DNA from: Bacteroidetes bacterium GWC2_46_850
GTDB taxonomy: Bacteria > Bacteroidota > Bacteroidia > Bacteroidales > Dysgonomonadaceae
Assembly: GCA_001768325.1 (NCBI GenBank)
Contig: MENQ01000011.1
Coordinates: forward strand, 1 to 64,000
DNA: 64,000 nt
Reading direction: 5' to 3'
Both the position numbers and the translations under genes were made by a program. Every line of letters begins with the position of its first letter. Position 1 is the first letter of the stretch. Of the stretch, positions 3-25,310 are shown piece after piece. The notes under the pieces were generated by a model, which had not been told where the DNA came from, made no database searches, and was given only the letters and a program-made list of their open reading frames with translations.

Positions 3-272
3 GATGCGGAACAGCCCGGCTTCAAACACATCATCCTACGCCCCCACTTTGAGAAAGATCTGCAACATTTCAACGCGGAATATAAATCACCCTATGGACT
101 TATTATCTCCAAATGGCATTGGATCAATAAGGATTTTGTTAATTATGAAGTAACTATTCCTCCGAACAGTAGTGCTACTCTGTACCTCTCCCCAAGTGTG
201 AAGGGAAAAAAGAAAGCCATACTGCAACCGGGGAAGCATCTGTTCAAACTAAAAGCAAATATTAATTTGTAA
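3..272 (+). CDS. Alpha-L-rhamnosidase-like enzyme, C-terminal end only
   Basis: This is the last 89 codons of a gene that begins before the window. It is read in the frame starting at base 3 and ends in TAA at 270-272. The protein tail has the beta-sandwich pattern seen at the end of GH78 rhamnosidases: PGFKHIILRPHF, then YKSPYGLIISKW, then a hydrophobic NYEVTIPPNSSATLYL stretch. GH78 enzymes release terminal L-rhamnose from pectic or other rhamnose-containing glycans. The catalytic (alpha/alpha)6 barrel lies outside the window, so activity cannot be judged. Its position just before a SusC/SusD operon on the same strand fits a PUL enzyme. Other six-hairpin glycosidases share this C-terminal domain type, so the family is likely but not certain. 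Confidence 0.72.
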   Translation, partial: DAEQPGFKHIILRPHFEKDLQHFNAEYKSPYGLIISKWHWINKDFVNYEVTIPPNSSATLYLSPSVKGKKKAILQPGKHLFKLKANINL

Positions 273-9410: not shown

Positions 9411-9913
9411 TCCAATAGATAATGCGTACGTAGTTCCATATAGCTATAGTTCGTACTAATTTACATATCAATATGAAACGAGCATCTAAATCAGTTATAC
9501 CCAAGTTAAAGATAATATGCGAGTTCCATACGACCTTAGTGTAAAGAAATAAAATATTATCGTATGAAAACGTTAGTGCTCCCCTGATGGAATCGGGGAA
9601 ATAAACATGTAGACAGTGATAGAGGAATCTTTCCGATTCCCATTTTTAACAATAAACATCACATCGCGCGGTTTTAAAATCATTTTTCACATTAAGGGGT
9701 AAATTAGGGGGTCTTACCTTTGTCCGATATTTCAATATATCTTTTTCCGGATGGACAATAGGAAAAAATGCGTGCCACTTTTTTCGGGGGCAAAAGCCAA
9801 TGTCAATGTGACTGCCATCGATTAATTCACTTAATTATATCAATATCTGGTCGACTATATCTAATCAAACAATTCAAACTAAATCTAATTATTAAACAAA
9901 GAAAAAGTGCAAG
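9411..9913 (+). promoter_or_regulatory. Long control region upstream of PUL unit 2
   Basis: No gene is visible in this stretch of about 500 bases. It holds AT-rich sequence with small inverted repeats: CCCCTGATGGAATCGGGG near 9580-9600, and GGAATC/GATTCC arms at 9624-9640. It also holds the 80-base promoter module described separately at 9643-9722. The start codon lies about 190 bases past the -7 element, so a long leader is transcribed. The nonamer AGTTCCATA occurs twice, near 9430 and near 9520; I can give it no role. Confidence 0.5.
9643..9722 (+). promoter_or_regulatory. Conserved 80-base promoter module, copy A (unit 2 susC)
   Basis: The module starts with TTTTTAACAATAAACATCA at 9643 and includes AAATCATTTTTCAC at 9677-9690. 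It ends with a Bacteroidota -7 element TACCTTTG at 9715-9722. A second copy sits upstream of the unit 3 susC at 20267-20346. The first 48 bases agree at 43 positions by hand count, and the spacing to the -7 element is exactly the same. No good TTG/TTTG lies in the -33 position, so transcription probably needs an activator bound to the conserved block. Confidence 0.72.
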
Positions 9914-12900
9914 ATGAAAAAAAAGTTAATTTTTCTATTTTTGATTTCTCTCTTACTTCCTCTTTATTTATCTGCACAAGAGAAACAGGTAAGCGGGAAG
10001 GTGATAGATGCGGAAACAGGGGAACCTTTGCCGGGTGCCACAATTCAGATTGAAAATTCAACGCGGGGAGTTACGACAGACATAGACGGGTCCTTCGAAA
10101 TCAGGGCCACTCCTACCGACAAGCTGGTAGTCTCTTTTCTCGGACTGGAGTCGCAAACGATCACGGTAGGGGCCCAGACATATCTTGAAATAATCATGAG
10201 GTTGGCAGCCAGTGAATTAGACGAAGTGACCGTCGTTGCCTTCGGGAAGCAAAAGAAAGAGAGTGTCGTAGCTTCTATATCAACGGTGAATCCCGAAGAA
10301 TTGAAAGTCCCTTCAAGTAACTTAACCACTGCGTTGGCCGGGCGGATGTCCGGACTGATCGCTTATCAGCGAAGTGGTGAACCGGGCAGGGATAACGCAG
10401 AGTTCTTCATTCGTGGTGTAACCACTTTTGGATATAAGAAAGACCCGCTTATCCTTATTGACAATAATGAATCATCCAGCACGGAACTAGCCAGAATGCA
10501 ACCGGATGACATTGCGAGTTTTTCTATTTTGAAAGATGCGACAGCGACAGCCCTTTATGGTTCGAGAGGAGCCAATGGTGTTATCCTCGTTTCGACCAAG
10601 GAGGGACGTGAAGGAAAGGCCAGGATAAATATCAGGTATGAGGAAGCCCTCTCGCAGCCGACAAAAATGGTGCATATGGCAGATCCGGTCACCTATATGC
10701 GGTTGCATAACGAGGCCATCCGGACAAGGGATCCGCTTGGTAAATTAATGTATTCGGAACACAAGATTCAAAACACGATAAACGGAACCAACCCTTATGT
10801 ATATCCGGCTACTGATTGGTATGACATGTTATTCAAAGATTATTCCAACAACCATCGGTTGAATTTTAACCTGTCGGGCGGGGGTAAGGTCACCCGTTAT
10901 TACCTTGCCGGAAGTGTAATAAACGATAACGGTGTATTGAATGTTGACAATAAAAACAATTTTAATAACAATGTTCAATTGAATCGGTATATGTTGCGCT
11001 CGAACGTGAATATTAACCTTACTCCGACAACGGAAGCAATTGTGCGTCTATCGGGAGCATTCGACGATTATAAGGGGCCCCCTCAAGGAGGCCAAAGGAT
11101 TTTTCAAATGGTGATGCATACAAATCCGGTATTGTTTCCCCCTTATTATGCACCTGATGCAGCAAATGAACATACGGAACATATATTATTCGGCAATTAC
11201 GACAACATGCAATATTATAACCCGTATGCAGAAATGGTAAGAGGATATAAAGAATATTCAGAGAGCCAAATGGGAGCCCAGTTTGAATTAAAACAGGATC
11301 TTGAATTCATCATGGAAGGTCTCTCTTTTCGTGCCATGTTCAATACAAACCGGTATTCATATTTTGACGTGGTAAGGCAATATGATCCATTTTACTATAA
11401 CATAGGAAGTTACAACAAAGAAAAAGACACTTATACACTTTCTCCGCTCAACGAAGAACAGGGGACGGACTATCTTTCTTATAGTGAAGGACCTAAAAAT
11501 GTAAATGCGGTAACCTATTTTGAGAGTGCGTTAAACTGGGCCCGTAGTGTTAATGAAAAGCATGACTTGGGAGCGCTTCTGGTCTATACCATGCGCAATG
11601 AATTAAAAGGAAACGCGGGAGATCTGCAAAGATCTTTACCATACAGGAACCTTAACTTGGCAGGACGTATCACGTATGCTTATGATTCGCGATATATGTT
11701 TGAAGGAAATTTCGGATATAACGGGTCGGAGCGTTTTTCAAAAGCGGAACGTTTTGGATTTTTCCCTTCGGCCGGTATCGGATGGAATATTTCAAACGAA
11801 AGTTTTTACGGGGAAGGATTGCGTAAGATTGTGAGCAGTCTGAAATTAAAATCCACATACGGATTATCGGGGAACGATGCCATCGGTGATGCCAACGATA
11901 GGTTCTTTTATCTTTCCAATGTGAACATGAACAGCGCGAACCACCGCTCTTCCTTCGGCACATTTGGAAATAGGGGCGGCCTGACCAAAGATGGTGTTTC
12001 TATTAGCCGGTATGCGAATGACCAAATTACCTGGGAAACTTCAAAGAAATTTAATATTACCGCCGAGATGGGATTATTTGAAAAGATTGATATTCAAGCT
12101 GAATATTTTCAGGAAGAGAGGAGCAATATTCTGATGGACAGGGCATTCATTCCTTCAACCATGGGACTGCAAGCTGCTACCCGTTCCAATGTGGGTAAAG
12201 CCGCTGCCCATGGAGTTGATGTTTCCGTAAATATGAACCATTCCTTTAACAAAGATGCCTGGATAAGCGGTATAGCCAATTTCACTTATGCAACCAGTGA
12301 ATTTAAAGTATACGAAGAACCTGATTATCCCGATGCTCCCTGGAGATCGAGAATTGGATATCCATTGACTCAAACCTGGGGATATATTGCTGAACGCTTA
12401 TTTGTAGACGACGAAGAGGTACGCAATTCTCCGACACAGTTCGGCAATTATAAAGCCGGGGATATCAAATATAAGGATTTGAACGGGGACGGGAAAATTA
12501 CAGAATTGGATATGGCTCCCATCGGATATCCTACAACTCCTGAAATTACCTACGGATTCGGATTATCATCCGGCTATCAGGACTTTGACCTCTCTTTCTT
12601 TTTCCAGGGAAATGCAAGAACTTCCTTCTGGCTTACAACATATAATGACTTTGGTCGTGGAATTGTAGATGTAACCCCGTTTATCGGAGGGCAACAAGGG
12701 TTGATGGAGGCTATCGCCGACAGTCATTGGTCGGAGGCAAACAGGAATGTATATGCCATGTGGCCGCGTCTGTCGACCACCCATATAGAAAATAATAGCA
12801 GGACGTCTACATGGTTGATGCGAGATGGCACCTTCCTTCGTCTAAAGTCCGTCGAGTTAGGATATACTTTACCTGTACATATCGCGACGAAAGCCCATAT

Positions 12901-13042
12901 GTCTAATTTACGCATTTATTTTAGCGGTACAAACTTGCTCACATTCAGCAAATTCAAGTTATGGGACCCTGAAATGGGAGGGAACGGGCTAGGATATCCT
13001 GTCCAAAGAGTATTTAATATGGGTATACAGTTGGGCTTTTGA
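9914..13042 (+). CDS. SusC-family TonB-dependent transporter, unit 2
   Basis: This 1042-residue transporter has a signal peptide at 1-22 (LYLSAQ). The carboxypeptidase-regulatory-like domain covers about 27-96 and carries the GEPLPGATIQIE and TTDIDGSFEI signatures. A TonB-box region DEVTVVAFG lies at about 103-111, then the plug (AGRMSGLIAYQRSGEPG, FFIRGVTTFGYKK, ILKDATATALYGSRGANG). The barrel ends in VFNMGIQLGF. The AFGKQKKESVVASISTV stretch is typical of a SusC subgroup common in Bacteroidales PULs. Its susD partner starts 21 bases downstream. It is probably regulated through the conserved module at 9643-9722. Confidence 0.95.
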   Translation: MKKKLIFLFLISLLLPLYLSAQEKQVSGKVIDAETGEPLPGATIQIENSTRGVTTDIDGSFEIRATPTDKLVVSFLGLESQTITVGAQTYLEIIMRLAASELDEVTVVAFGKQKKESVVASISTVNPEELKVPSSNLTTALAGRMSGLIAYQRSGEPGRDNAEFFIRGVTTFGYKKDPLILIDNNESSSTELARMQPDDIASFSILKDATATALYGSRGANGVILVSTKEGREGKARINIRYEEALSQPTKMVHMADPVTYMRLHNEAIRTRDPLGKLMYSEHKIQNTINGTNPYVYPATDWYDMLFKDYSNNHRLNFNLSGGGKVTRYYLAGSVINDNGVLNVDNKNNFNNNVQLNRYMLRSNVNINLTPTTEAIVRLSGAFDDYKGPPQGGQRIFQMVMHTNPVLFPPYYAPDAANEHTEHILFGNYDNMQYYNPYAEMVRGYKEYSESQMGAQFELKQDLEFIMEGLSFRAMFNTNRYSYFDVVRQYDPFYYNIGSYNKEKDTYTLSPLNEEQGTDYLSYSEGPKNVNAVTYFESALNWARSVNEKHDLGALLVYTMRNELKGNAGDLQRSLPYRNLNLAGRITYAYDSRYMFEGNFGYNGSERFSKAERFGFFPSAGIGWNISNESFYGEGLRKIVSSLKLKSTYGLSGNDAIGDANDRFFYLSNVNMNSANHRSSFGTFGNRGGLTKDGVSISRYANDQITWETSKKFNITAEMGLFEKIDIQAEYFQEERSNILMDRAFIPSTMGLQAATRSNVGKAAAHGVDVSVNMNHSFNKDAWISGIANFTYATSEFKVYEEPDYPDAPWRSRIGYPLTQTWGYIAERLFVDDEEVRNSPTQFGNYKAGDIKYKDLNGDGKITELDMAPIGYPTTPEITYGFGLSSGYQDFDLSFFFQGNARTSFWLTTYNDFGRGIVDVTPFIGGQQGLMEAIADSHWSEANRNVYAMWPRLSTTHIENNSRTSTWLMRDGTFLRLKSVELGYTLPVHIATKAHMSNLRIYFSGTNLLTFSKFKLWDPEMGGNGLGYPVQRVFNMGIQLGF

Positions 13043-13063
13043 AGGTTTTAAAACAGAATTAAG

Positions 13064-14998
13064 ATGAAAACAAGAACAATAAAAGAGATAATACTTTTTG
13101 TATGTGTATTATATATCACATCATCCTGTGATTATTTAGATGTTGTCCCGGATAATGTGGCTACAATCGATTACGCATTTAAAAACAGTATTGCTGCCGA
13201 AAAATACTTATATGGTTGTTATAGCTACAGGCCGGCAATCGGGGACATACAAAATGATCCGGCGATGACCGGTTCGGACGAAACGACACAGAGGTACGTG
13301 CAGATGGAGTTAGGAACAAGATTTGTCACCTGGGGAGGAACAAAGATAACACGGGGATTACAAAATGCCAATGAACCGATCATGAATACATGGGATGGGA
13401 ACCATTCATTGTGGGTAGGTATTCGTGATTGTAATATTTTCCTGGAAAATATAGATAACGTGAAGGGACTGATGGAGCATAACCGAAGAAGATGGGTCGC
13501 TGAAGTTAAATTTTTAAAAGCTTATTATCATTATACCCTAATGAAGCGGTACGGCCCGGTTCCTATCGTAGACGTGAATCTGCCTATATCAGCCGATGTG
13601 ACGGCAGTTCAGGTTTATCGGGAACCCATTGACGATGTAGTGAATTACGTGATTGGCCTGATTGAAGAAGCGATACCGGATTTACCGGAAGCAAAAGAAA
13701 TTGTAGAAGGGACAGAAGCCGGCAGGGTCGATAAACTGATCGCCATGACGTTAAAAGCTGAAGTCCTACTTTTTGCTGCAAGCCCTTTGTTTAACGGGAA
13801 CACCGATTATTCGGGAATAAAAGATAACAAAGGCAGACAGCTATTTCCACAGAATTACGATCCCAATAAATGGCAAATAGCCGCTGATGCTTGCCTCGAA
13901 GCCATTAACGCTGCCCATGAACAAGGAAAAAGGCTGTATAATCAGTTGGATCCGTTATTAATTAATGAGCATGAAATATTGCAATTGGAGATCAATTACA
14001 GGCAGGCTGTTTGTGACAAATGGAATTCTGAATTGATATGGGGGGGGACAAATAATGACTGCGGAATTCTTGCACGTGACGCTTCTACAAGAATAATCCG
14101 AATGAGTCCAACCACCTTAACTTCCGTGACAAGTGAATGGTCTCCAACGCTGGGATTAGTAAACAAATACTATTCCAAGAACGGTGTTCCTATCGAGGAA
14201 GATAAATACTGGCAATCAGAAGGTTGGTACCAGAATAGATATTCCATTCGTCCCGAACCCTCTGGCAATGAAGAGATCTATCATGTGAAAGAAGGAGAAA
14301 AAACAATATATCTGCATTATAACCGTGAACCTCGTTTTTATGCAAGCATCGCTTTTGACAAAGGAATTTATTTTGGTACAGGCTATAATACGTTCAAAGA
14401 TGCCAAACATTGCGAATTTATGAATACCCAAATTTCAGGTTTCCAAGCCGGAGAAGCAAATAGTATTACTGGCTATGGAGCTAAAAAAATGAGCCACTAT
14501 AAAAATACACAGCAATATGACAGGACAACTTGGGAATATTTTCCATTTCCAGTTTATCGGCTGGCAGATTTATATTTGATGTATTCCGAAGCATTAAATG
14601 AAGCGGGAGGACCGGAGGATGACATATTCAGATACTTGGATAAGATCCGGGAACGAGCTGGATTGGAAGGAATTGCCGACTCATGGACAAAATATTCTAC
14701 AAACCCGGAAAAGATTAACACCAAAGAGGGCAGAAGAAATATCATCCGCAGAGAGCGAGCGATAGAATTGGCTTTTGAAGGTAAGCGCTTTTGGGATATC
14801 CGGAGATGGAAAGAAATAGAGATTTACAATGCAGACCCGCAAGGATGGAACATCATGGGGGAATCGCCGGAAGATTTCTATACTGTCCTTCCCTTGAGGA
14901 ACGAATCGGTGAGATTTACCGTAAAGGATTATTTCTGGCCAATACGGGAGTCTAATTTGTTTGTGAACAAAAACCTTGTTCAAAACTATGGTTGGTAA
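13064..14998 (+). CDS. SusD/RagB-family glycan-binding lipoprotein, unit 2
   Basis: This 644-residue lipoprotein has lipobox TSSC (Cys22) followed by DYLDVVPDN. Typical SusD features are the helix WVAEVKFLKAYYHYTLMKRYG and the C-terminal RRERAIELAFEGKRFWDIRRW, which sits in the RagB/SusD C-terminal domain. It would work as the surface lid of the SusC encoded just before it. Thirty bases separate it from the next lipoprotein gene. The long middle section with many aromatic residues is usual for SusD proteins that bind large branched glycans, but the ligand cannot be named. Confidence 0.95.
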   Translation: MKTRTIKEIILFVCVLYITSSCDYLDVVPDNVATIDYAFKNSIAAEKYLYGCYSYRPAIGDIQNDPAMTGSDETTQRYVQMELGTRFVTWGGTKITRGLQNANEPIMNTWDGNHSLWVGIRDCNIFLENIDNVKGLMEHNRRRWVAEVKFLKAYYHYTLMKRYGPVPIVDVNLPISADVTAVQVYREPIDDVVNYVIGLIEEAIPDLPEAKEIVEGTEAGRVDKLIAMTLKAEVLLFAASPLFNGNTDYSGIKDNKGRQLFPQNYDPNKWQIAADACLEAINAAHEQGKRLYNQLDPLLINEHEILQLEINYRQAVCDKWNSELIWGGTNNDCGILARDASTRIIRMSPTTLTSVTSEWSPTLGLVNKYYSKNGVPIEEDKYWQSEGWYQNRYSIRPEPSGNEEIYHVKEGEKTIYLHYNREPRFYASIAFDKGIYFGTGYNTFKDAKHCEFMNTQISGFQAGEANSITGYGAKKMSHYKNTQQYDRTTWEYFPFPVYRLADLYLMYSEALNEAGGPEDDIFRYLDKIRERAGLEGIADSWTKYSTNPEKINTKEGRRNIIRRERAIELAFEGKRFWDIRRWKEIEIYNADPQGWNIMGESPEDFYTVLPLRNESVRFTVKDYFWPIRESNLFVNKNLVQNYGW

Positions 14999-15028
14999 AT
15001 TATCAAGCATTTGTAACTATAATATAAT

Positions 15029-16237
15029 ATGAAACTAAAAAAGAATTGTTTTTTTCGGTTAGTTTTGGGGATGATATTTCTTTATTCATGTGGGAATGAA
15101 GAGCCTGTAGGGCAACAACCTTTGGACAATATCCCGCCCGGAATTATAACAAATGTACGTGTGAAGAATATTGCGGGAGGTGCTGTTTTCCACTATACAC
15201 TTCCTTCCGATGAAGACCTGTTATATGTAAAAGCTGTTTACTCCATTGACGGGGAAACGGAAGTGGAGAGCAAAGCTTCGGCTTTTGTCGATTCACTGTT
15301 GGTGTTGGGCTTTGGTGATACCATACAGTATCAGGTGAAGTTGATCACGGTGGACAAAAGCCGTAATGAGGCCGAACCACATGTTGAAACCATAAGACCG
15401 CTCATTCCGGATGTCCTTTCTATTTCGAAAACCCTTTCAATTGTTTCAGACTTCGGAGGATTACTGGCCACATGGGAAAATCCAAACAAGGCAGATATTT
15501 CGGTTAATATTGAAATAGAGGATCATAACAGGGAGTACGTGCCCAAAGAAATATTTTATAGTTCCTCGATAAACGGAAAAGGTACCGTACGGGGTATGGA
15601 TACGATCCCTTTTCATTTCCGGACTTACCTGCAAGACCACTGGGGAAACAAGAGCCCTTTTAAATATGACACGATCATCCCGATTTATGAAACGAAATTC
15701 GACAAATTAAAATTTGCCAAAGTGACAACATCAGGAGATATCCCCCCGTATAATTCAGACTACGATATACATCGGATATGGGACGGAAACAATGGCGGCG
15801 ACCCGTGTTACAGTTCCCCTGCAGGAACTGGTATATGGCCCCAAACTGTCTCTTTTGATCTGGGTGTTATAGGCAAGATCAGTCGGTTGCGGTTATTCCA
15901 GAGAACTTCAAGTACGAATTATATTTTTCACGAAGGGAATTTGAGAAACTTCGAAGTATGGGGATGCTTAAATTACAATCCTGCTCAATCGGGGTGGGAG
16001 CAATGGACTAAGTTAATGGATTGTGAATCTATTAAACCATCCGGATTACCTCTTGGTCAGCTTTCTATTGAAGATGAAGAACAAGCACGAAATGGGGAGG
16101 ATTTTACAAATAACCCGAATAACCCGCCGGTACGCTATATAAGAATATTAGCAAAACGAACCTGGGCCAATGGAGCCAATTTTCAAATCGGGGAGGTGGA
16201 AATCTATGGCGACAACAGGCCATCAGTAATGCAATAG
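15029..16237 (+). CDS. DUF4959/DUF5126/DUF5000-type PUL surface lipoprotein
   Basis: This 402-residue lipoprotein has lipobox LYSC (Cys21). The order looks like a fibronectin-like DUF4959 (about 35-130, starting IPPGIITNVRVKNIAGGAV), a DUF5126-like middle domain, and a C-terminal DUF5000/discoidin-like domain. That last domain has HRIWDGNNGGDPCYSS, VSFDLGVIGKISRLRLFQR and the final FQIGEVEIYGD. The C-terminal fold suggests carbohydrate binding on the cell surface. It lies between susD and a related lipoprotein gene, both within about 35 bases, so it belongs to the same transcript. Domain names are from remembered patterns. Confidence 0.78.
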   Translation: MKLKKNCFFRLVLGMIFLYSCGNEEPVGQQPLDNIPPGIITNVRVKNIAGGAVFHYTLPSDEDLLYVKAVYSIDGETEVESKASAFVDSLLVLGFGDTIQYQVKLITVDKSRNEAEPHVETIRPLIPDVLSISKTLSIVSDFGGLLATWENPNKADISVNIEIEDHNREYVPKEIFYSSSINGKGTVRGMDTIPFHFRTYLQDHWGNKSPFKYDTIIPIYETKFDKLKFAKVTTSGDIPPYNSDYDIHRIWDGNNGGDPCYSSPAGTGIWPQTVSFDLGVIGKISRLRLFQRTSSTNYIFHEGNLRNFEVWGCLNYNPAQSGWEQWTKLMDCESIKPSGLPLGQLSIEDEEQARNGEDFTNNPNNPPVRYIRILAKRTWANGANFQIGEVEIYGDNRPSVMQ

Positions 16238-16269
16238 AAAATATTAGTAATTTAAATGAATGATTATTT

Positions 16270-17436
16270 ATGAATAATTTGATGAAAATAATTTATATAA
16301 CGGCAATAACGGTTTGCCTGCTGTTCGTATCATGTTCCGACATGAACGAATTGAGCGATCGTTTTCTGAAAAAGGGTGAAACTACTTATGCCGCATTGCC
16401 TGATTCTGTAACTGTTGGAGCCGGGAAAGAGCGCGTACAATTTGAAATATTCATAACAACAAACAGAGTAAAAACAACGCGTATCTATTGGAATAACCGT
16501 ACCGATTCGGTGGATATTGAAATAGGGAATCAAGCGGGAGTATTCTATAAGACCATAGAGAATTTGCCGGAACAAAGCTATCTGTTTGATTTAGTGAACC
16601 TAGATCAATATGGGAATCGGTCTCTTCTCTATGAAGTGTCCGGGCGATCTCTCGGAGAGAAATATGAAAGTACAATGATAAACAGGCGCCTTGTCTCTTT
16701 GAGTGCGAATAACGCCGGGAATAAAGTATTGGTATGGGGTGGTATGGATGAGTCTCTGGATGCCGGGTACACAGAGATATCATATACGAATACCGAAGAT
16801 GAGAATGTATTGATGGAGGTTCCTTTATCTGAAACTAGTACGATTATCACAGATCTTAAACCCGGTAGTTTACCCAAATATCGCACCGTGTATATTCCGG
16901 ATGAAATGGTGGTTGATGTTTTTTACACCGACTTCACAAACGCTTCTCTTACTTACGATGGGGATTTTTTGTTAATTAAATCTGAAATTTCAATTATAGG
17001 GTATTCAAATCAACATGATTCGGGGGACAATGCAGCTAAACACGCCCTTGATAATAATTATACCAACAGATGGCATACCCGTGTTGGCGAAAATTTTCCC
17101 CATTGGATGGTTTTTGATATCGGCGGAGAAGTTCTTGTGAGTAGATTTTCCATATGGCCTTCGGTATTTGGTTTAGAAACAGGAAAATTATTTGATAATA
17201 GATTGCCTGCTACATTCTCTCTTTGGGGAAGAAATGATGAACCTCCCCGTGATCATTTGTCTGGAGAAGAAGGGTGGACACAATTGGGAAACTATTCAAT
17301 TGAAGAAAGAGGCGGAGAACAAACCTTTACGATAGACAATCCAATTCCGGTAAGATATCTCAAGATGAGTTCACCTAATGGGTTAAATGGTACAACAATG
17401 ATGGTTATCGGAGAGTTTGATATTTACTCCAGATAA
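16270..17436 (+). CDS. DUF4998 lipoprotein with C-terminal discoidin-like domain
   Basis: This 388-residue lipoprotein has lipobox LFVSC (Cys22). The N-terminal ~200 residues match the DUF4998 pattern, with a start MNELSDRFLKKGETTYAALPDSV and repeated Ig-like strands. The last ~150 residues look like an F5/8 type C domain: AKHALDNNYTNRWHTRVG, WMVFDIGGEVLVSRFSIWP, and VRYLKMSSPNGLNG near the end. Such proteins regularly follow the DUF4959/DUF5000 lipoprotein in Bacteroidales PULs, giving two different surface binding proteins per SusC/D. An internal ATG at residue 5 is an alternative start. A strong hairpin lies 22 bases after the stop. Confidence 0.78.
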   Translation: MNNLMKIIYITAITVCLLFVSCSDMNELSDRFLKKGETTYAALPDSVTVGAGKERVQFEIFITTNRVKTTRIYWNNRTDSVDIEIGNQAGVFYKTIENLPEQSYLFDLVNLDQYGNRSLLYEVSGRSLGEKYESTMINRRLVSLSANNAGNKVLVWGGMDESLDAGYTEISYTNTEDENVLMEVPLSETSTIITDLKPGSLPKYRTVYIPDEMVVDVFYTDFTNASLTYDGDFLLIKSEISIIGYSNQHDSGDNAAKHALDNNYTNRWHTRVGENFPHWMVFDIGGEVLVSRFSIWPSVFGLETGKLFDNRLPATFSLWGRNDEPPRDHLSGEEGWTQLGNYSIEERGGEQTFTIDNPIPVRYLKMSSPNGLNGTTMMVIGEFDIYSR

Positions 17437-17457
17437 TTCATTTATTTTCTGGATATA

Positions 17458-17500
17458 AGGGTGTATTAAAACGGTTATCTCAACGTATTTAATACACCCT
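17458..17500 (+). terminator. Strong intercistronic hairpin between the DUF4998 gene and the glycosidase gene
   Basis: Bases 17458-17470 (AGGGTGTATTAAA) pair perfectly with 17488-17500, a 13-base stem with a 17-base loop. No T run follows, so it may be a partial terminator or an RNA-stabilising hairpin that lowers expression of the glycosidase relative to the transporter genes. Confidence 0.5.
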
Positions 17501-17601
17501 ATACCACCATCAATGGGTTTTGTTGATTTTTTATACTCCTATTACAATATTTTTTTACGGGTATCCGTTGTAAGATATCTTCTCAATTAACAATAGAAAA
17601 A

Positions 17602-20148
17602 ATGTCAAAAATAAATACGCTATCATTTCTTACTGCAATAGCATTGCTTCTTCCTGGGAAAATTTTCGCAGTAAATAAGATTCCGGATCGAAGTAATCTA
17701 TCTCAGTTTAATTCAATCGTTCACGATCCTTCAACAAGAAAAATTACGCTTTCAGATCCAAACAGGAATCTCCTTTTACAAATAGACTATACAAAGGGTT
17801 GCCGGATAACCGAATTAAGCATAAAAGGGCAGAATACATTATCACCTGCTGGTGTTTATACCGGATTCAGGACTAAGGGCGGAGCGTTCACCTCTTTGAC
17901 CGATATCGACGAAATCGATGTGGAAGAGCAAATGGGAATCATTACTATAAGAAATATTATTTATGGTGATCATTCAATTCAGGTGAATGAGTCTTGGATT
18001 TTTGAAACAATTGGTGATAAGATTATTTGGCATATAGACCGGGAATACAGCGGGTTGGCAAAACTGGAGGAAACCTCTTTCCCTCAATGGAACTTTAGTG
18101 ATTTATCCGTCTGGAAAGGTGGGATACTGGATAATGGCGGGGTTATCTGGTGTAAATATCTTGATAAAGTGAATAATACATACGGCGTACACACGGGTGG
18201 TGTTACTTTTTGGAAGCCCGACAATGGAAATGCTTTCCGAATAGATGCAAAAGCAGATGGTAAAAATATTGCAGCTAAATATTCACTAAATGAAAATCAA
18301 GAATTTGTATGTACGCATTTTGTGACAGACACCGAATTGGAACCACGTTACAATTTGAACCGTTTTGTGCACGGACAATCGGATGTGTTTGGTTCATTTG
18401 ACGTACAGCGTGGAATGACTTCGATAACGTTGGAAATGGAATATATTGATTATGATATGGCATATTCTCGTGGTGTACTTCCGGGTATCGACGAAAAAGC
18501 AGTTCGGGAATTGATGAATACAACCGGACGTTATGGTGTTGTAGATAATGGCATTGTGGGTGCCAATGGTTGGCTTACAAACTGGAAATGCTTGCATGAA
18601 CCATTTTTCGCACAAATAGGCATGGCTTTAGGGGATGACAATTATACTCTGAATATGGGAACTACTCTGGATAGAGAAAGAGACCATGCATTAACCTCTG
18701 AAGGACGCGTCTTGTCGCGCTGGCATAATGAAGACGAAGACCAGATGCCTGGCACATTTAATTATAAGACAGGATACTACGAGGCCCGTTGGGGATATAC
18801 TGTCGATTCACAAACCGGATATATTATTAATACGGCTGAACAATTCGACTTATGTGGCGATGTTAATTGGTTACTTTCGCATAAAGCCAGTTGTGAGAAA
18901 GCATTGGACTGGCTAATCAGACGGGATACAAATGATAATGGAATTTTCGAGATGATGAATAATTCGATTGCGGAAAAAACGGCAAGCGATTGGTTGGATA
19001 TTGTCTGGGCCTCTTTCGAAAATGCTTTTGTAAATGCCCAAATGTATGAAGCCTTGAACCTATGGGTAGAATGTGAACGGATTCTAGGTGATATGGAAAA
19101 AGCGGATTACTACCATAAAATAGCCAAACGACTCAAAGAAAATTTCAATAAGTCGGTTGATGAAGGCGGTTTTTGGTCACCAGAACAAAAGCAATATATT
19201 TACTGGCGCGATAAAGATGGCTCTGTGCATGGAGATAATCTGGTTACTCCCGTCAACTTTGCCGTTATTGCATTTAATCTTTGCGATGACAAAAAACGCA
19301 TCGCACAAATCCTTGATCAGATAGAGAAGAGAAGTACCGCTGAAAATCTTTTCCATTGGCCTTTATGCTTCGATTCTTTCAAAAGGGAAGAAGTGGAATC
19401 GGGCAATTGGCCCTTCCCGAGATATGAAAACGGGGATATATTCCCCACCTGGGGATATCTGGGTGTCAGGGCTTATGCTGGATATAACAAGGAAATAGCA
19501 TTGAAGTATATACGTAATCTTTTGGCACAATATAAGAAGGATGGCCTTTCGTCGCAGCGTTATAGTCGAGAGACTCAATTGGGTTTGGGTTCGGATATAC
19601 TGGCTGGGATATGTACAAGCGTTACGGCTCTCTACCGGGATATCTATGGCATTCGTCCCAGATGGAACCGGATGGGATTGGAGCCCAATATGCTTAAGAA
19701 CCTGAATGGAACAGTCTTTAATTACACCTTGCGCAATATGGTTTATCAAGTTATATTGAATACGAATGACTATGAATTGCGCAATGAAAACTTTTCCGTG
19801 AAAAGCAAAGAGGCCTTTGGCGCGTCATTCAAGAATAAGGAACTGGCAATCTTCCCTCATAACAAAGAACAAGTGATCCTGAAACTAAAAGGAGATTCGA
19901 GCCTGCCGATATCTGTCGAAGTTAACAGTTATACCGGACAAAACCTCTCCTGGAAGGTAACTTCTGCAGGCAATTACCACATTGCCGTCACAGGATTAGA
20001 TCCCGCAGAGAAATATGCAATATCAATCAATGGAAAGAGCGTCAATATCGGAGTAAACAAGGATGGAGAAGCCTCATTTTCTTATTCTTGCATAAAGCCA
20101 ACGCTCTTTAGTCTGAATGGAAAATTAGAAAAGTACAGGAGCAATTAA
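17602..20148 (+). CDS. Secreted six-hairpin (alpha/alpha)6-type glycoside hydrolase, family uncertain
   Basis: This 848-residue protein has a type I signal peptide (cleavage likely near FA/VNK, residue 24). The N-terminal ~290 residues are beta-rich, like the super-sandwich domain that precedes (alpha/alpha)6 barrels. Residues about 320-720 look like a six-hairpin barrel of the debranching-enzyme/GH78-like type: DTNDNGIFEMMNNS, TASDWLDIVWASFENAF, NGDIFPTWGYLGVRAYAGY and YRDIYGIRPRWNRMGLEP. A small beta domain closes the protein. It probably hydrolyses an oligosaccharide in the periplasm after SusC import. I cannot fix the CAZy family or the catalytic acids. It is the only complete enzyme in the first three units. 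Confidence 0.75.
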   Translation: MSKINTLSFLTAIALLLPGKIFAVNKIPDRSNLSQFNSIVHDPSTRKITLSDPNRNLLLQIDYTKGCRITELSIKGQNTLSPAGVYTGFRTKGGAFTSLTDIDEIDVEEQMGIITIRNIIYGDHSIQVNESWIFETIGDKIIWHIDREYSGLAKLEETSFPQWNFSDLSVWKGGILDNGGVIWCKYLDKVNNTYGVHTGGVTFWKPDNGNAFRIDAKADGKNIAAKYSLNENQEFVCTHFVTDTELEPRYNLNRFVHGQSDVFGSFDVQRGMTSITLEMEYIDYDMAYSRGVLPGIDEKAVRELMNTTGRYGVVDNGIVGANGWLTNWKCLHEPFFAQIGMALGDDNYTLNMGTTLDRERDHALTSEGRVLSRWHNEDEDQMPGTFNYKTGYYEARWGYTVDSQTGYIINTAEQFDLCGDVNWLLSHKASCEKALDWLIRRDTNDNGIFEMMNNSIAEKTASDWLDIVWASFENAFVNAQMYEALNLWVECERILGDMEKADYYHKIAKRLKENFNKSVDEGGFWSPEQKQYIYWRDKDGSVHGDNLVTPVNFAVIAFNLCDDKKRIAQILDQIEKRSTAENLFHWPLCFDSFKREEVESGNWPFPRYENGDIFPTWGYLGVRAYAGYNKEIALKYIRNLLAQYKKDGLSSQRYSRETQLGLGSDILAGICTSVTALYRDIYGIRPRWNRMGLEPNMLKNLNGTVFNYTLRNMVYQVILNTNDYELRNENFSVKSKEAFGASFKNKELAIFPHNKEQVILKLKGDSSLPISVEVNSYTGQNLSWKVTSAGNYHIAVTGLDPAEKYAISINGKSVNIGVNKDGEASFSYSCIKPTLFSLNGKLEKYRSN

Positions 20149-20189
20149 AAGCTGCTAAACCTCTTAAAAGCGTATTGAATGTTAATTGA

Positions 20190-20226
20190 CTGCATGGGAA
20201 AGGCTTGAGCCAATCATCTCATGCAG
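20190..20226 (+). terminator. Hairpin after the six-hairpin glycosidase gene
   Basis: CTGCATGGGA at 20190-20199 pairs with TCTCATGCAG at 20217-20226 (10 base pairs, one of them G-T). Only a weak T-rich tract (AATTTCTTT) follows. It probably ends the unit 2 transcript. Confidence 0.45.
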
Positions 20227-20266
20227 CCAATTTCTTTGTAGTAATATAGGAATCATTCCATGCTAT

Positions 20267-20346
20267 TTTTTAACAATAAACATCATATTGCACTGTTTTT
20301 AAATCATTTTTCACGCCTTTACGGAATAACGCTACTTTTATCTTTG
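20267..20346 (+). promoter_or_regulatory. Conserved 80-base promoter module, copy B (unit 3 susC)
   Basis: It starts with TTTTTAACAATAAACATCA at 20267, has AAATCATTTTTCAC at 20301-20314, and ends in the -7 element TATCTTTG at 20339-20346. Every landmark has the same offset as in copy A at 9643-9722. A GGAATC lies 18 bases upstream of the block here and 19 bases upstream in copy A. The susC start codon follows about 100 bases downstream. Confidence 0.72.
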
Positions 20347-20447: not shown

Positions 20448-23400
20448 ATGAAAGTGAAAATGAAAAAGTTACCTTCTTTACTGTGTATTTTACTATTCAT
20501 CTCTTTCTGTTTGTCTGCCAAACAAGTGCTCCCAAACAAAGATGCAATGGTAATAGTGTTAGGAGCATCCTTGTCCGAGGCAACGATTTGGTTTGAGAAC
20601 TTATTTTCTGAAACTATCCCGGGCATTGACCGAACCTTTGAAATTTCTTCATTAACCGACAAGAGGCAGAGAATAGGGTCTGAAGAACTCCAGATGGAAA
20701 CTGAGATGTTTCAGCAAAAGAAACAAATTTCTGGAATAATTACGACAGAACAGGGAGAACCTATTATCGGGGCGAATGTCATTGAAGAGGGTACCAACAA
20801 CGGTACTGTCACCGATCTAGATGGAAACTTCACCTTGAATGTGGTAGAAGGAGTCATACTGCATATCTCCTATATAGGCTACTTGCCTCAGAAGATTAAC
20901 ACAGCAGATGGATTCACATTCAATATTGTTTTATTGGAAGATACACGAGCGTTAGATGAACTCGTGGTTGTGGGATACGGAACCCAGAATAAACGCGAAG
21001 TAACAGGTGCCTTATCACAAATTAATGCTGAAAAGCTAACTGAAATACCAGTCTCAAGCGTCGCCCAACAGTTACAAGGAAAGTTAGTAGGAGTACAGAT
21101 CAATGAGAATACAGGCGAGCCTGGTGGAGCAATGTCCTTTCGTGTCAGAGGAGCAGCTTCGATCAATGCTGGAAACTCCCCGTTAATTGTCGTTGATGGG
21201 TTTCCCACAACCAGTGGGCTTGAAACCTTTAATCCCGATGCTATTGAATCAATTTCTGTTTTAAAAGATGCATCTGCCTCCGCCCTCTATGGCTCAAGGG
21301 CAGCCAACGGAGTTATACTGATTACCACGAAGCAAGCCAAAGAGGAACAGAGATTGATAGAGTTTTCTTCCTATTTCGGTGTTCAGTCCGTCCCCCAGCG
21401 TGGAAGACCTGATCTGATGAATGCAAGGGAATTCGCGCAGTTCAAAAAGGAGTATTATGAGGATGCTGCCATTTATGAGGGATATACGGGAGGAGTCCCT
21501 GAAGAATATGCAAACCCGGAACAATATGGCCCCTATGATGGCACGGATTGGTTTGATGTTTTGTTGAGGGATGCCATTACTCAAAAATATAACTTAAGTA
21601 TATATACCGGAACAAAAAATCTACGATCCGTTATAAATTTGAGCTACAACAACGAAGAAGGAGTAATTTTGAACTCCTACTCTAATCGATACACTGCTCG
21701 TACCAATAACATATATGATGCTTCTGACAAGTTAACGTTTGGAATCAATCTAGCTACTTCTCATATACGAAGTAATATCCTTCCTGGACTTGGAAATGGT
21801 CGAAATATTCTTGCCAATGCTTTTAATATGGATCCTACCATTGAATACAAAAATGAAGATGGTACTTATCCCATTTCCTTTTCCCGGCCCGGAATGTTCG
21901 CCAACCCAAATTATTACCTTGTTGTAACCCAAAGGAAATATCCTAAGAAGGAAACAACCGTGCTGGCCAACCTGTTTGGTGAATATGAGTTTATGACTGA
22001 TCTTAAATATAAACTCAGTGTGAATGCCAATACAGGCAATACTATTACCATGTCATTCACTCCTTCAACAGCACAAGGAGGCTTGGGTAGCGCCCCTCCA
22101 CAACCGGCCACCGGAAGTTACGGGACAAATAATTTCGAAAACTGGTTGATTGAAAATACACTCAATTACCACACGTCAATCAATAAAAAACATAATCTGG
22201 AAATTTTGGCAGGGTATACCTCTCAGAAATTCTCATTTGAAAATAGCAATATTGAAGCCCGGGAGTTCCCTGATGATGAAGTGGAATGGATCAATGTAGC
22301 CACTACACGTATAGGAACAGCTGATAAAAGAGAATCTTCTCTATTATCCTATTTGGGGCGTTTTAATTATAATTATAACGACAAATACTTACTGTCTCTT
22401 GCTTTTCGAAGAGATGGCTCATCGAGATTCGGCTCTGATACCAAATGGGGAGATTTCCCATCAGTCTCGGTCGGATGGGTCGTGTCAGATGAAGAATTTA
22501 TGAAAAACATGAAGGATATACGACTTCTTAAACTCAGAGCTAGTTTTGGTAAGGTAGGGAACAATAATATCGGAGATTACACTTATCTGGCATCACTTGA
22601 TACCGATAACTATGTTTTTGGGGGACAGGTGGTCCCCGGTAGATCCTTGAACGGAATCGGGAACTCACAGCTTACTTGGGAAACGACGACCAGCTATAAT
22701 TTAGGACTTGATCTCGATCTTTTCCGAGGACGCGTATCATTCACCTATGATTACTATTGGAAAAAGACAGATGGATTGTTATACGGCATTGATATTCCAA
22801 TACAATCCGGATTTAACAATATCACTTCCAATATTGGAGAGTTTAATTTTTGGGGACATGAATTTTCGCTGATAACCCGAAACCTGACCGGGGAGTTTAA
22901 GTGGGACACCAACTTGAATATCTCTTTTGATCGAAACAAGGTAATTAAACTCGGTACAAATGATGCCCCAATAGGCGGTTACAACCTGTTCTGGGATGAT
23001 AACAGAACGGCAGTAGGATATCCTATCGGGTTATTCTATGGTTATATAAATACAGGGGTATATATGACCCAGGAAGAGTTTGAAACCCAACCCCACGGAG
23101 CAACGTCTATGATAGGAACCGCGAGGTTCGCCGATATAAGTGGTCCCGACGGCATACCAGATGGAATCATCGACTCCCACGACAGAACATTTATAGGTGA
23201 CCCTAACCCTGACTTTATTTACGGGATAACCAACAGTTTTAGCTATAAAGATTTTGATCTGAGCGTTGTAATGGCCGGTACCGTGGGCAATGACATCGCG
23301 AACGATCATTACCAGTCATCAGAGAATTTTGATGGTGTTTTTAATATTCGCAAAGGATACGCAGATCGATGGAGATCGCCGGAAAACCCAGGGAGCGGAT

Positions 23401-23708
23401 ATTACCCCCGAACACGATCGGGGACAACGGCCGATTATAGAAATTTTACTGATAGACAGATTTTTAAGGGGACTTATCTTGCCGTTAAAAACATTACACT
23501 CGGATATAATATTGAGGTACCTAAAAAATTATTTATAGAAAAAGTGCGAGTAAACTTCAGTGCCCAGAACCTGTTTATATTCACGAAATACCCGGGAATG
23601 AACCCGGAAGTTGGAATGTCTGGACTGAATGGGTTAAATCAAGGAAGGGATTTCACTTCCTATCCTATTTCAAAAATATACACGATAGGTCTAAACGTAA
23701 CTTTCTAA
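20448..23708 (+). CDS. SusC-family TonB-dependent transporter with extra N-terminal segment, unit 3
   Basis: This 1086-residue transporter has a signal peptide ending near residue 24. An ATG four codons in (20460) is an equally good start. Between the signal peptide and the carboxypeptidase-regulatory-like domain (about 93-166) lies an extra stretch of about 65 residues with no clear match; it could be a degenerate STN-type signalling domain. The TonB-box region DELVVVGYGTQ is at about 170-180. The plug has GKLVGVQINENTGEPGG, FRVRGAASINAG and VLKDASASALYGSRAANG. The barrel ends in YTIGLNVTF. Its susD partner starts 48 bases downstream. The module at 20267-20346 is its likely promoter. Confidence 0.93.
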   Translation: MKVKMKKLPSLLCILLFISFCLSAKQVLPNKDAMVIVLGASLSEATIWFENLFSETIPGIDRTFEISSLTDKRQRIGSEELQMETEMFQQKKQISGIITTEQGEPIIGANVIEEGTNNGTVTDLDGNFTLNVVEGVILHISYIGYLPQKINTADGFTFNIVLLEDTRALDELVVVGYGTQNKREVTGALSQINAEKLTEIPVSSVAQQLQGKLVGVQINENTGEPGGAMSFRVRGAASINAGNSPLIVVDGFPTTSGLETFNPDAIESISVLKDASASALYGSRAANGVILITTKQAKEEQRLIEFSSYFGVQSVPQRGRPDLMNAREFAQFKKEYYEDAAIYEGYTGGVPEEYANPEQYGPYDGTDWFDVLLRDAITQKYNLSIYTGTKNLRSVINLSYNNEEGVILNSYSNRYTARTNNIYDASDKLTFGINLATSHIRSNILPGLGNGRNILANAFNMDPTIEYKNEDGTYPISFSRPGMFANPNYYLVVTQRKYPKKETTVLANLFGEYEFMTDLKYKLSVNANTGNTITMSFTPSTAQGGLGSAPPQPATGSYGTNNFENWLIENTLNYHTSINKKHNLEILAGYTSQKFSFENSNIEAREFPDDEVEWINVATTRIGTADKRESSLLSYLGRFNYNYNDKYLLSLAFRRDGSSRFGSDTKWGDFPSVSVGWVVSDEEFMKNMKDIRLLKLRASFGKVGNNNIGDYTYLASLDTDNYVFGGQVVPGRSLNGIGNSQLTWETTTSYNLGLDLDLFRGRVSFTYDYYWKKTDGLLYGIDIPIQSGFNNITSNIGEFNFWGHEFSLITRNLTGEFKWDTNLNISFDRNKVIKLGTNDAPIGGYNLFWDDNRTAVGYPIGLFYGYINTGVYMTQEEFETQPHGATSMIGTARFADISGPDGIPDGIIDSHDRTFIGDPNPDFIYGITNSFSYKDFDLSVVMAGTVGNDIANDHYQSSENFDGVFNIRKGYADRWRSPENPGSGYYPRTRSGTTADYRNFTDRQIFKGTYLAVKNITLGYNIEVPKKLFIEKVRVNFSAQNLFIFTKYPGMNPEVGMSGLNGLNQGRDFTSYPISKIYTIGLNVTF

Positions 23709-23756
23709 AGACCAAATAATAGTATTAAAAAAAGTTTTTACAAGAGAAAAATCAAA

Positions 23757-25310
23757 ATGAAAACAAAATTAATTTATATCATTGCAACTTTTCTGTGCAT
23801 ATATGCTTGTAGCGATGACTTTCTCAGATTGTTTCCTGAAACTTCGATAAGTTCGGCATCGTTTTTCAAAAATGAAAATCAATTTAATCAGGCATTAGTT
23901 GGGGCTTATTCAAACCTCCGTGGTGTTGCCGTCATGGGTATTTTCATGGATGAAATGAGGTCCGACAATACTTTTTTTACACGATATGCAGCCGATAGGG
24001 GCACTGAGGCAAGTGTTGAGGCCATAGCCTCATTTCTGGATGATGCCTTTACAAGTTCCCAACCAAACAGTGCAGGGAACAGGTACGGGAATGCATATCA
24101 AGGAATTGCCAAGGCAAATACAGTGCTGACACAGTTGGAGATATCCGGTGTGAAATTGAGTCAGTCGAGCGTGGATGTCCTGTCGGGAGAGGCCTTGTTT
24201 CTCAGGGCGTTTTACTACTTTGATCTGGTGCAACATTTTGGCGGGGTGCCCTTGCATCTTGAAGAAGTGAGATCTGAAGCAGACGCTTTTCTCCAGAGAA
24301 ATTCCGTTGCGGAGGTATATGACCAAATTATCGCCGATTTGATCAATGCTATCCCCAAACTCCCGGTAGCTATTTCATTTCCACAGTCCGGCAGGGCAAC
24401 AAAAGGTGCTGCAAAAATGCTTCTGGCCTATGCATACATGTCAAAACCAATAAGGGATTATGCTTCTGCCGAGACACAGCTTCACGACATCACGAATATG
24501 AACTATGCACTATTGGATAATTACGAAGATGTATTTGATCCGACCAAAAAGAATCACCGGGAATCCATTTTCGAAGTCCAATATAAAACCGGTAATGAAG
24601 GGCAGCATAGTGATTTTATCTGGAGGTTTATTCCCAAGACCTCTAATACCGAGGCTATATTGGGACTCGCCGGAACGAATCTGAGAGGAAGTCTTAACAG
24701 CGGAGGCTGGAATGTTCCTACCCAGGAATTGGTGGACTCATATGAACCCGGAGATCTCAGGCTGGCTGCCTCCATAGCCATTGCAGAAGGCACACAGGAA
24801 GGAGATATATTTACAACCGAGTCGGTGATCAGTCCGGTGGATTATGCCCCTTCGCCGGGTAAAGTCTATTATTACTTTATTAAAAAATTTCTTCATCCAC
24901 CTTATTCAGTGGAGTGGAACACGGATGACAACTGGCCGGTATACAGATATTCTGGTGCATTGCTCCTGTTGGCAGAATCTCTCGTGCAACAGGGCAAATC
25001 TTCGGAAGCACTTCCTTATATAAACCAAGTGAGGACAAGAGCAGGACTCGCCCCACTTTCCAGTGTAACCCTCGAAGATATTGCAAATGAAATGCGACAT
25101 GAATTGGCTTTTGAAAATCATCGATGGACCGATCTGATCCGTCATGGTAAGGCTATTGAAGTATTAAACGCAAAAGGTGTCAGATTGAAAGAACTTTACG
25201 GATGGCTGCTACCGGTCTCGTTTAACGTTACGGAAGAGCGGTTGATCTATGCGATACCCGATAGAGAGATTCTTATAAACAATAATCTGACACAAAATCC
25301 AGGATATTAA
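23757..25310 (+). CDS. SusD/RagB-family glycan-binding lipoprotein, unit 3
   Basis: This 517-residue lipoprotein, of ordinary SusD length, has lipobox IYAC (Cys18) followed by SDDFLRLFPET. SusD landmarks are SSASFFKNENQFNQALVGAY, the helix LSGEALFLRAFYYFDLVQHFGGVPL, RATKGAAKMLLAYAYM, and the C-terminal LLLAESLVQQGKSSEALPYINQVRTRAGL with a terminal NPGY. It would act with the SusC encoded before it. No enzyme or extra lipoprotein follows, so this pair relies on enzymes encoded elsewhere or shares those of unit 2. Confidence 0.95.
   Translation: MKTKLIYIIATFLCIYACSDDFLRLFPETSISSASFFKNENQFNQALVGAYSNLRGVAVMGIFMDEMRSDNTFFTRYAADRGTEASVEAIASFLDDAFTSSQPNSAGNRYGNAYQGIAKANTVLTQLEISGVKLSQSSVDVLSGEALFLRAFYYFDLVQHFGGVPLHLEEVRSEADAFLQRNSVAEVYDQIIADLINAIPKLPVAISFPQSGRATKGAAKMLLAYAYMSKPIRDYASAETQLHDITNMNYALLDNYEDVFDPTKKNHRESIFEVQYKTGNEGQHSDFIWRFIPKTSNTEAILGLAGTNLRGSLNSGGWNVPTQELVDSYEPGDLRLAASIAIAEGTQEGDIFTTESVISPVDYAPSPGKVYYYFIKKFLHPPYSVEWNTDDNWPVYRYSGALLLLAESLVQQGKSSEALPYINQVRTRAGLAPLSSVTLEDIANEMRHELAFENHRWTDLIRHGKAIEVLNAKGVRLKELYGWLLPVSFNVTEERLIYAIPDREILINNNLTQNPGY

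Follow-up and report, generated by a model that had tools for sequence, protein, structure and literature searches.

The window, i.e. the whole 64 kb stretch of DNA analysed here, carries on its plus strand two susC/susD units, designated unit 2 and unit 3, and a gene for an AraC-family regulator. Unit 2 begins with susC (9914-13042), which was assigned by Pfam, encodes a 1042 aa protein and is the first gene under a predicted operator. Orthologs at 88-97% are present in four other genomes (G001, G007, G010 and G038). The remainder of unit 2 (13064-20148) comprises susD and genes for a DUF4959/DUF5126/DUF5000 protein, a DUF4998 protein and a possible rhamnosidase-like protein. The latter has a weak match to the rhamnosidase six-hairpin domain (22.2 bits, below the Pfam cut-off of 24.5), and its G007 ortholog scores just over the cut-off (25.2 bits). 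Unit 3 consists of susC and susD (20448-25310). The regulator gene (25741-26643) encodes a protein with a cupin-type AraC_binding domain and two HTH domains (HTH_18/HTH_AraC in Pfam). Its open reading frame was listed from 25612, and the orthologs align from about 25741.

Two related blocks upstream of units 2 and 3

Each of the two susC genes is preceded by a 48-base block predicted to be an operator (9643-9690 for unit 2 and 20267-20314 for unit 3, both on the plus strand). The blocks agree at 43 of 48 positions and have an identical start of 19 bases. When the bases of 400-bp upstream regions were shuffled, the best 48-base match in 500 pairs was 32. The -7 elements, TACCTTTG at 9715-9722 and TATCTTTG at 20339-20346 (plus strand), start 24 nt past their blocks, and the bases between block and -7 element are unlike in the two units. 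The initial annotation had noticed the block, its identical start and its equal distance to TAnnTTTG, and a recount gave the same values. Its wording of near-identical 80-base modules is correct for 48 bases and does not hold for 80, as only 50 of 71 bases are alike once the comparison is widened to 9620-9690.

A scan of both strands of the window, using a matrix built with the susC and rhaB sites included, yielded 40.4 and 36.7 bits at the two copies and 11.2 bits at the next position. The latter is within the range of the best positions in 10 shuffled windows (8.4-13.8 bits), in line with the earlier observation that unit 1 lacks the pattern.

Within each operator, a TTTAACA extension (9645-9651 and 20269-20275) is followed by a distal and a proximal half-site 21 bp apart, all on the plus strand. 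In unit 2, these are ATCACATCGCGC at 9658-9669 and ATCATTTTTCAC at 9679-9690; in unit 3, ATCATATTGCAC at 20282-20293 and again ATCATTTTTCAC at 20303-20314, with 10 of 12 bases alike between the two unit 3 half-sites. Each operator may be read as an imperfect direct repeat of two ATCA-N7-C half-sites, which at this distance of two helical turns would be located on the same face of the DNA. The self-match at lag 21 had a p of 0.0145 in a column permutation of five susC sites, with lag 33 scoring equally, and a p of 0.109 for 26 sites upstream of rhaB, with lags 35 and 12 scoring higher. The proximal half-site ends 24 nt before TAnnTTTG and would thus abut the -33 region, the usual place of a class II activator. 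This would explain why a good TTG at -33 is not needed.

The predicted operator in this genome and in relatives

The genome-wide motif scan proposed in the initial annotation found three full operator copies in 3.75 Mb and none with a reversed control pattern. The exact 19-mer occurs at the same three places. Two copies precede susC in the window. The third, almost perfect one (G000:C18:59313-59360) is located before a susC remnant and is part of an incomplete duplicate that comprises the promoter of unit 2 and the beginning of its susC. A scan for the proximal half-site combined with the -7 element found 8 places compared to 1 for the reversed control. Three of the 8 (two on C3 and C18:22773) were by eye devoid of a distal half-site and were set aside as chance matches.

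Copying of promoter DNA has occurred in this genome. Furthermore, GGAATC, pointed out in the initial annotation, is indeed present upstream of both window copies, 19 bases before the block at 9624 and 18 bases at 20249, so that it is one base out of register. However, it was not found in the 100 bases before the core of the C18 copy or of G001, G007 and G010, and was dropped as an operator part. Both observations would suit a promoter fragment that was merely copied and has no common regulator, its similarity reflecting descent and being kept by chance. This explanation is extremely unlikely: The spacer bases differ while the distance between operator and -7 element stays, and the core is kept across species before orthologous susC genes and, in a related form, before rhaB. 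For the same reasons, simple recent duplication was rejected as a full explanation. The initial annotation had likewise suggested conserved spacing, which is 23-24 nt in the sites compared.

Orthologs of the AraC protein are encoded in five Proteiniphilum genomes, our own and four others at 75-81% identity. In all four others, they are located near orthologs of the unit 2 susC/susD genes, and a GH106 alpha-L-rhamnosidase gene is found near AraC orthologs in relatives. Three of the four (G001, G007 and G010) have the operator before their unit 2 susC, in G001 and G010 between araC and susC. In the fourth, G038, the contig ends too early; its visible 192 bp of upstream DNA resemble those of a second unit 2-like susC of G001, which has no such site upstream. 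Among 101 genomes of the family, 29 match the core with at most 3 mismatches. A match without mismatch is confined to G000 (our genome), G001, G007 and G010, four of the five genomes that encode this AraC protein. In 295 genomes sampled across the order, a match was found in one other genome only, with 2 mismatches.

In a scan of eight loci with unit 3 susC homologs, such a site with susC as the next gene was present in two, those of G077 and G052 (48-55%), and was not found directly before susC in six. When 39 genomes of the genus were searched strictly for a 43-base pattern, allowing 3 mismatches, our own genome was the only one to match, because the distance from TTTAACA to the core is longer by one base in the relatives. 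A looser pattern with 2 mismatches gave 99 matches versus 16 for the reversed control and is, therefore, too loose for counting operators unless the -7 element is included. Other susC and GH88 genes are preceded by similar sites whose distal half is TCATTT, so that the half-site alone does not name a single regulator.

The AraC protein and its relation to RhaR

The closest paralog of the AraC protein is RhaR, encoded in rhaB-rhaA-rhaT-rhaR. As the window gene is located outside the rhaB-rhaA-rhaT operon, whose regulator copy is on G000:C23, it is a paralog and not RhaR itself. Both paralogs are also present in P. acetatigenes DSM 18083. Contigs C18 and C23 each terminate within a GH78 gene, at an identical residue, and either may precede C11; in the case of C23, the rha operon and this PUL would be neighbours. 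In a tree of 80 rows (78 of 80 loci plus two rows from our genome; L140, the G038 ortholog, and L177 are not included), the clade of the window protein (100/100) falls within a mostly Proteiniphilum RhaR clade of 26 rows (100/99), in which the branching order is not fixed; the bootstrap had not settled.

The rha operon itself is preceded by a related site. The 81 RhaR-type loci studied comprise the best 80 of 144 relatives and L063; 49 of them contain a rhaB more than 50% alike with at least 250 bp of upstream DNA. A related site was found upstream of rhaB in 27 of these 49, at -94 to -114. With a matrix from the susC sites alone, the top-scoring position of the entire locus was upstream of rhaB in 18 of 49. 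For 22 of the 49 loci, whose rhaB is in each case no more than 54-62% alike, the matrix was unsuccessful, with the exception of B. luti, the only one of the 22 to rank a site first. These loci belong to Bacteroidaceae, Dysgonomonas and others, and we do not claim that they carry the same operator. Sites with at least 21 of 31 consensus matches were aligned (26 rhaB sites); that of L160 was lost as its upstream DNA is shorter than 320 bp.

The sites near rhaB and before susC have a related core and an equal distance to the -7 element. TAnnTTTG is located at 23-24 nt in all six susC-type and all 26 aligned rhaB sites. In 1.8 Mb of loci, it occurs 88 times at 23 or 24 nt and 6 times elsewhere between 0 and 40 nt. 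In 1.62 Mb of shuffled sequence, none of 113 sites over 8 bits has a -7 element at 23-24 nt. The matrices behind these two counts and the unit 3 homolog scan include the susC and rhaB sites found again, and some loci overlap in the 88-versus-6 and unit 3 counts, with identical sites entered once.

The susC and rhaB operators have the core, the apparent repeat spacing and the -7 distance in common, and either of the two paralogs might act at the susC promoters. The main RhaR (G000:C23:4135-5028) is encoded in the same genome, and its group is on average 62% identical to that of the duplicate in the DNA-binding half. It could bind the operators instead of, or as much as, the duplicate, which would then be a helper or a decoy. 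We consider this unlikely. Of the 101 genomes of the family, only 4 contain the susC core without mismatch, and each of them encodes the duplicate, whereas a RhaR-like match at E 1e-40 is present in 74. Moreover, the distal half-sites differ consistently (CACATCGCGC in the susC type versus CAAAAARYAY in the rhaB type), and 11 C-terminal residues separate both protein groups without exception (5 sequences each).

Hybrid two-component systems (HTCS) have been described as one of the major classes of regulators of Bacteroides PULs (PMC11253607) and, with an AraC-type DNA-binding domain and a membrane sensor, might likewise bind these sites. The HTCS motifs predicted in B. thetaiotaomicron likewise consist of direct repeats before susC, the sites being on average 21 bp apart (PMC3878776). 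Among solved chains, matches to the window AraC protein at E 1e-8 were confined to the DNA-binding portions of a response regulator and an HTCS. However, none of the 11 genome hits for Y_Y_Y, a hybrid two-component marker that does not cover every sensor type, is on C11 (261 kb) or C18. The conserved neighbour is instead the one-component RhaR duplicate with its AraC_binding domain, and a like architecture is found before rhaB. Binding by an HTCS is, therefore, very unlikely.

A candidate rhamnose regulon and its known counterparts

The two blocks are probably AraC-family operators, and the RhaR duplicate encoded at 25741-26643 most likely activates both susC units (estimated probability about 75%). 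According to the initial annotation, units 2 and 3, but not 1, might be controlled together through an activator site, with this AraC protein as candidate; the comparison with relatives favours both suggestions, through the site kept before the unit 2 susC in three relatives and the related site before the rha operon, whose regulator is the closest paralog. The duplicate may have specialised on the susC locus. Its derivation from RhaR makes rhamnose or a rhamnoside the probable inducer. Such a ligand in the cytoplasm would bind the cupin domain, and an activator dimer would fill both half-sites and recruit RNA polymerase at both susC promoters. The predicted outcome is a feed-forward rise of uptake with co-expression of units 2 and 3. 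Together, the RhaR duplicate, the conserved operator, the rhaB-like spacing and the lack of a hybrid marker on the contig suggest that units 2 and 3, but not unit 1, most likely form one rhamnose/rhamnoside regulon under a cytoplasmic RhaR paralog. For unit 2, whose own enzyme match is below the Pfam cut-off, the putative link to rhamnose is provided by the neighbours (GH106, GH78) and the regulator.

In Bacteroides, the AraC-family regulator RhaR (BT3768) is described as controlling rhamnose genes (PMC3870299, PMC3878776), with a predicted operator that is a direct repeat with a 21-bp period (PMC3870299) and a regulon given as a single target operon (PMC3878776). Judged from other Bacteroides RhaR-type loci, BT3768 is presumably homologous to those studied here. 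The AraC-type regulator, the predicted 21-bp repeat and the adjoining rha kinase, isomerase and transporter genes are alike; here, however, a RhaR duplicate and a changed distal half-site are found before two susC/susD units. The arabinan PUL of B. thetaiotaomicron also involves a cytoplasmic monosaccharide sensor, AraR, in polysaccharide control, but there, an HTCS activates and AraR represses (PMC5061871), whereas in the present scheme the susC promoters would be direct targets of the cytoplasmic activator. Erwinia chrysanthemi RhaS-rhiTN likewise combines a rhamnose-responsive AraC-family activator with oligosaccharide uptake genes; it is enterobacterial, uses another uptake system, and the account in PMC3870299, in the part concerned, mentions no duplicate regulator.

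A broader scenario is conceivable, albeit tentative. A RhaR duplicate and its operator could have jointly acquired a new specificity, so that glycan import is run directly from the cytoplasm without a hybrid sensor. The rhamnose regulon of Dysgonomonadaceae might then be wide and rigidly spaced (23 or 24 nt), comprising rha catabolism, a divergent 2-oxoacid (pyruvate-type) dehydrogenase operon and several susC/rhamnosidase units. If this is true, import of a glycan and burning of its sugar would follow one operator grammar, and duplication of a one-component regulator would be a route to new PUL control. Cytoplasmic monosaccharide regulators have been predicted to bind promoters beyond their own pathway (PMC5061871), a notion that can be tested directly at this locus, where two sites and a single regulator gene are defined and the candidate inducer is simple. 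For locating rhamnose-regulated genes in the family, the spacing of 23-24 nt provides a sharp pattern.

Two susC operators and their copies in the genome

The putative operators of susC/susD units 2 (9643-9690) and 3 (20267-20314) are identical at 43 of 48 positions, including the whole of their first 19 bases, as the initial annotation had counted. When the two 400-bp upstream regions were base-shuffled as pairs 500 times, no 48-base match exceeded 32. The -7 elements, TACCTTTG in unit 2 and TATCTTTG in unit 3, each start 24 nt past the block, and GGAATC starts 19 and 18 bases ahead of it; the equal -7 spacing and the GGAATC offsets had been described previously. Near-identity had been claimed across 80 bases; it is limited to the 48. 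A matrix scan of the window yielded 40.4 and 36.7 bits for the two copies and 11.2 bits for the next-best position, which falls within the range of the best positions in 10 shuffled windows (8.4-13.8 bits). Therefore, unit 1 has no copy, as the annotation had held. The operator pair is real and conserved. The GGAATC element of unit 2 (9624-9640) forms a small hairpin with the five-base loop TTTCC.

A third copy of the block was found in the own genome (3.75 Mb, 32 contigs; the window is the beginning of contig C11) at C18:59313-59360 (locus L010:14314-14361). BLAST resolves it into window segments 9635-9801, 9881-10014 and 10801-10852 in series, an incomplete duplicate of the unit 2 promoter and the beginning of susC. 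Downstream are a 567-aa gene that matches nothing in Pfam and a gene for a GH78 rhamnosidase, and the promoter copy, located ahead of a susC remnant, may now drive both. Its GGAATC counterpart (L010:14296-14311) has the hairpin loop GGAAA, by eye the reverse complement of the unit 2 loop. C18 and C23 each break off within a GH78 gene, and the two genes (L010:16382-18196 and L063:1-1782; 89% identity) are cut at the same residue. The start of C11 (window 3-269), which either contig may precede, falls within a Bac_rhamnosid_C domain.

The proximal half-site combined with the -7 element occurs at eight places in the whole genome (reversed control: one). Five of these are unit 2, unit 3, the C18 copy and the promoters of rhaB on C23 and of a GH88 gene on C30; the remaining three lack a distal half-site by eye. 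The architecture recurs with TCATTT as the distal half at C30:100545 (= L222:8546), L229:5675 and L258:6334, where it precedes GH88 or susC genes, with a divergent lipoate-protein ligase gene in 3/3.

The window AraC protein and RhaR

Of the 101 family genomes searched, four besides the own genome encode orthologs of the window AraC protein (25741-26643), at 75-81% identity. In all four, orthologs of the unit-2 susC, susD (both 85-97%), DUF4959 and DUF4998 genes and a GH106 gene are located nearby. The operator precedes the unit-2 susC ortholog in G001, G007 and G010, with TAnnTTTG at 23 nt, and lies between araC and susC in G001 and G010. This conserved arrangement upholds the proposal that the AraC protein is the closest candidate regulator. 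Copying alone, which would make the blocks functionless, is disfavoured because the site is conserved across species. The fourth genome, G038, offers just 192 bp upstream of susC before the contig end, and these resemble the promoter of G001's second susC, which lacks the site. Upstream of this unit-2-like gene is a run of 16 C (L059:18665-18680, G001:C15) that may be a variable tract or have arisen in assembly.

The next nearest homologs (56-67%), RhaR among them, are encoded after the genes for rhamnulokinase, rhamnose isomerase and RhaT in most loci with enough flank (NCBIfam and Pfam labels; context of the best 80 of 144 relatives' loci). In a maximum-likelihood tree of 80 rows, the window protein and those of G001, G010 and G007 form a clade with support 100/100. 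It is nested in a 26-row clade (100/99) of otherwise mostly Proteiniphilum RhaR-type rows, whose internal branching order is not settled by the tree; the bootstrap had not fully stabilised. This nesting and the rha-operon context of the homologs make the window AraC a RhaR duplicate, which originated at or near the base of the 26-row group.

Between five sequences of the window AraC group and five of the RhaR group, two of the latter nearly alike, 24 fixed differences were counted, 11 within the DNA-binding half. The distal half-site reads CACATCGCGC in the susC type versus CAAAAARYAY in the rhaB type. Both changes are compatible with, rather than proof of, re-specified binding. Within the family, 29/101 genomes contain the susC-type core at ≤3 mismatches and only four at 0, all with the duplicate; across the order, 2/295 sampled genomes have it at ≤2, the own genome and G297 (2 mismatches). 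The strongest rival explanation is that the main RhaR binds the susC-unit sites, which is not exclusive of binding by the duplicate.

Relation to the rhamnose operator

A matrix built from five distinct susC sites only was used to scan each rhaB locus on both strands. Its top position lay upstream of rhaB in 18/49 loci; in 27/49, a site was present between -94 and -114. In the other 22, rhaB is always diverged (54-62%), and only B. luti ranks the site first. TAnnTTTG follows 23-24 nt past the core in 26/26 aligned rhaB sites and 6/6 susC-type sites. Judged by these comparisons, the rhamnose operator before rhaB is related to the susC operators.

In 1.83 Mb of partly overlapping fetched loci, 245 distinct sites exceeded 8 bits, a non-independent set including matrix-building sites and those of related genomes. 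TAnnTTTG was found at 23 nt (46) or 24 nt (42) in 88 cases and at other distances from 0 to 40 nt in six; 152 sites had none. Shuffled sequence (1.62 Mb) contained 113 sites above 8 bits, none with a -7 element at 22-25 nt. Filtering the fetched DNA for a -7 element at 22-25 nt leaves 86 matches, every one at 23 or 24 nt. For most of them the nearest gene downstream is rhaB, a susC-like gene or part of a divergent dihydrolipoyl-acyltransferase operon; about a dozen matches precede other or unlabelled genes. On C23 (L063:9397-19322), rhaB stands opposite a divergent operon for a pyruvate-type 2-oxoacid dehydrogenase (E2, E3 and a fused E1) and a bifunctional aldolase/dehydrogenase-like protein. 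Comparable operons occur at other Dysgonomonadaceae rhaB loci, and 18/86 matches precede such an E2 start (by-eye labels; E2 confirmed in L063 and L104).

At E 1e-200, the unit 3 susC has a single genus match besides itself (G013, 39%); homologs in other genera share 39-56%. The G052 homolog, together with its susD, adjoins a RhaR-like AraC gene and rhaBAT. Among eight homolog loci scanned, two have a correctly spaced site with susC as next gene (G077, 115 nt; G052, 545 nt). The site lies further upstream in G045 with a small ORF intervening, ahead of another gene about 3.7 kb upstream of susC in G087 and G088, and on the opposite strand in G063; G068 and a second G087 locus have no correctly spaced site. 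Tentatively, the link of this susC type to rhamnose control may be older than the genus. The unit 3 susC product carries about 65 extra residues (window 20448-20720) ahead of its CarbopepD domain, which starts at residue 94 versus 26 in unit 2; most homologs do not align there.

Proposed mechanism and precedents

Sequence, spacing, conservation, paralogy and synteny are the established part of the model. An AraC-family dimer would occupy half-sites 21 bp apart and cause class II-type activation, with rhamnose or a rhamnoside as probable inducer. Class II placement is typical of AraC-family activators. The repeat symmetry of the half-sites itself has modest support (p 0.0145 for susC sites, 0.109 for rhaB sites). 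The -7/-33 promoter grammar has been described (PMC7366714), and a 21-bp direct repeat was predicted for Bacteroides RhaR (PMC3870299). Control by a hybrid two-component system (HTCS), whose DNA binding is the subject of PMC11253607, would be consistent with this geometry, as HTCS motifs are likewise repeats about 21 bp apart (PMC3878776), but neither C11 nor C18 has a match to the HTCS marker domain Y_Y_Y, and this alternative is disfavoured.

For Bacteroides RhaR, one target operon has been listed (PMC3878776). In other phyla, rhamnose regulators also govern oligosaccharide uptake (PMC3870299), and arabinan/AraR offers a precedent (PMC5061871). Among the titles and abstract openings listed, with subscription journals thinly covered, no report of a RhaR paralog controlling susC units was found. 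PFOR is lowered in a RhaR-dependent way by a route not known (PMC11669328), and the divergent dehydrogenase operon may bear on this effect. On this reading, a RhaR-type regulator together with its operator would have been recruited to glycan import.
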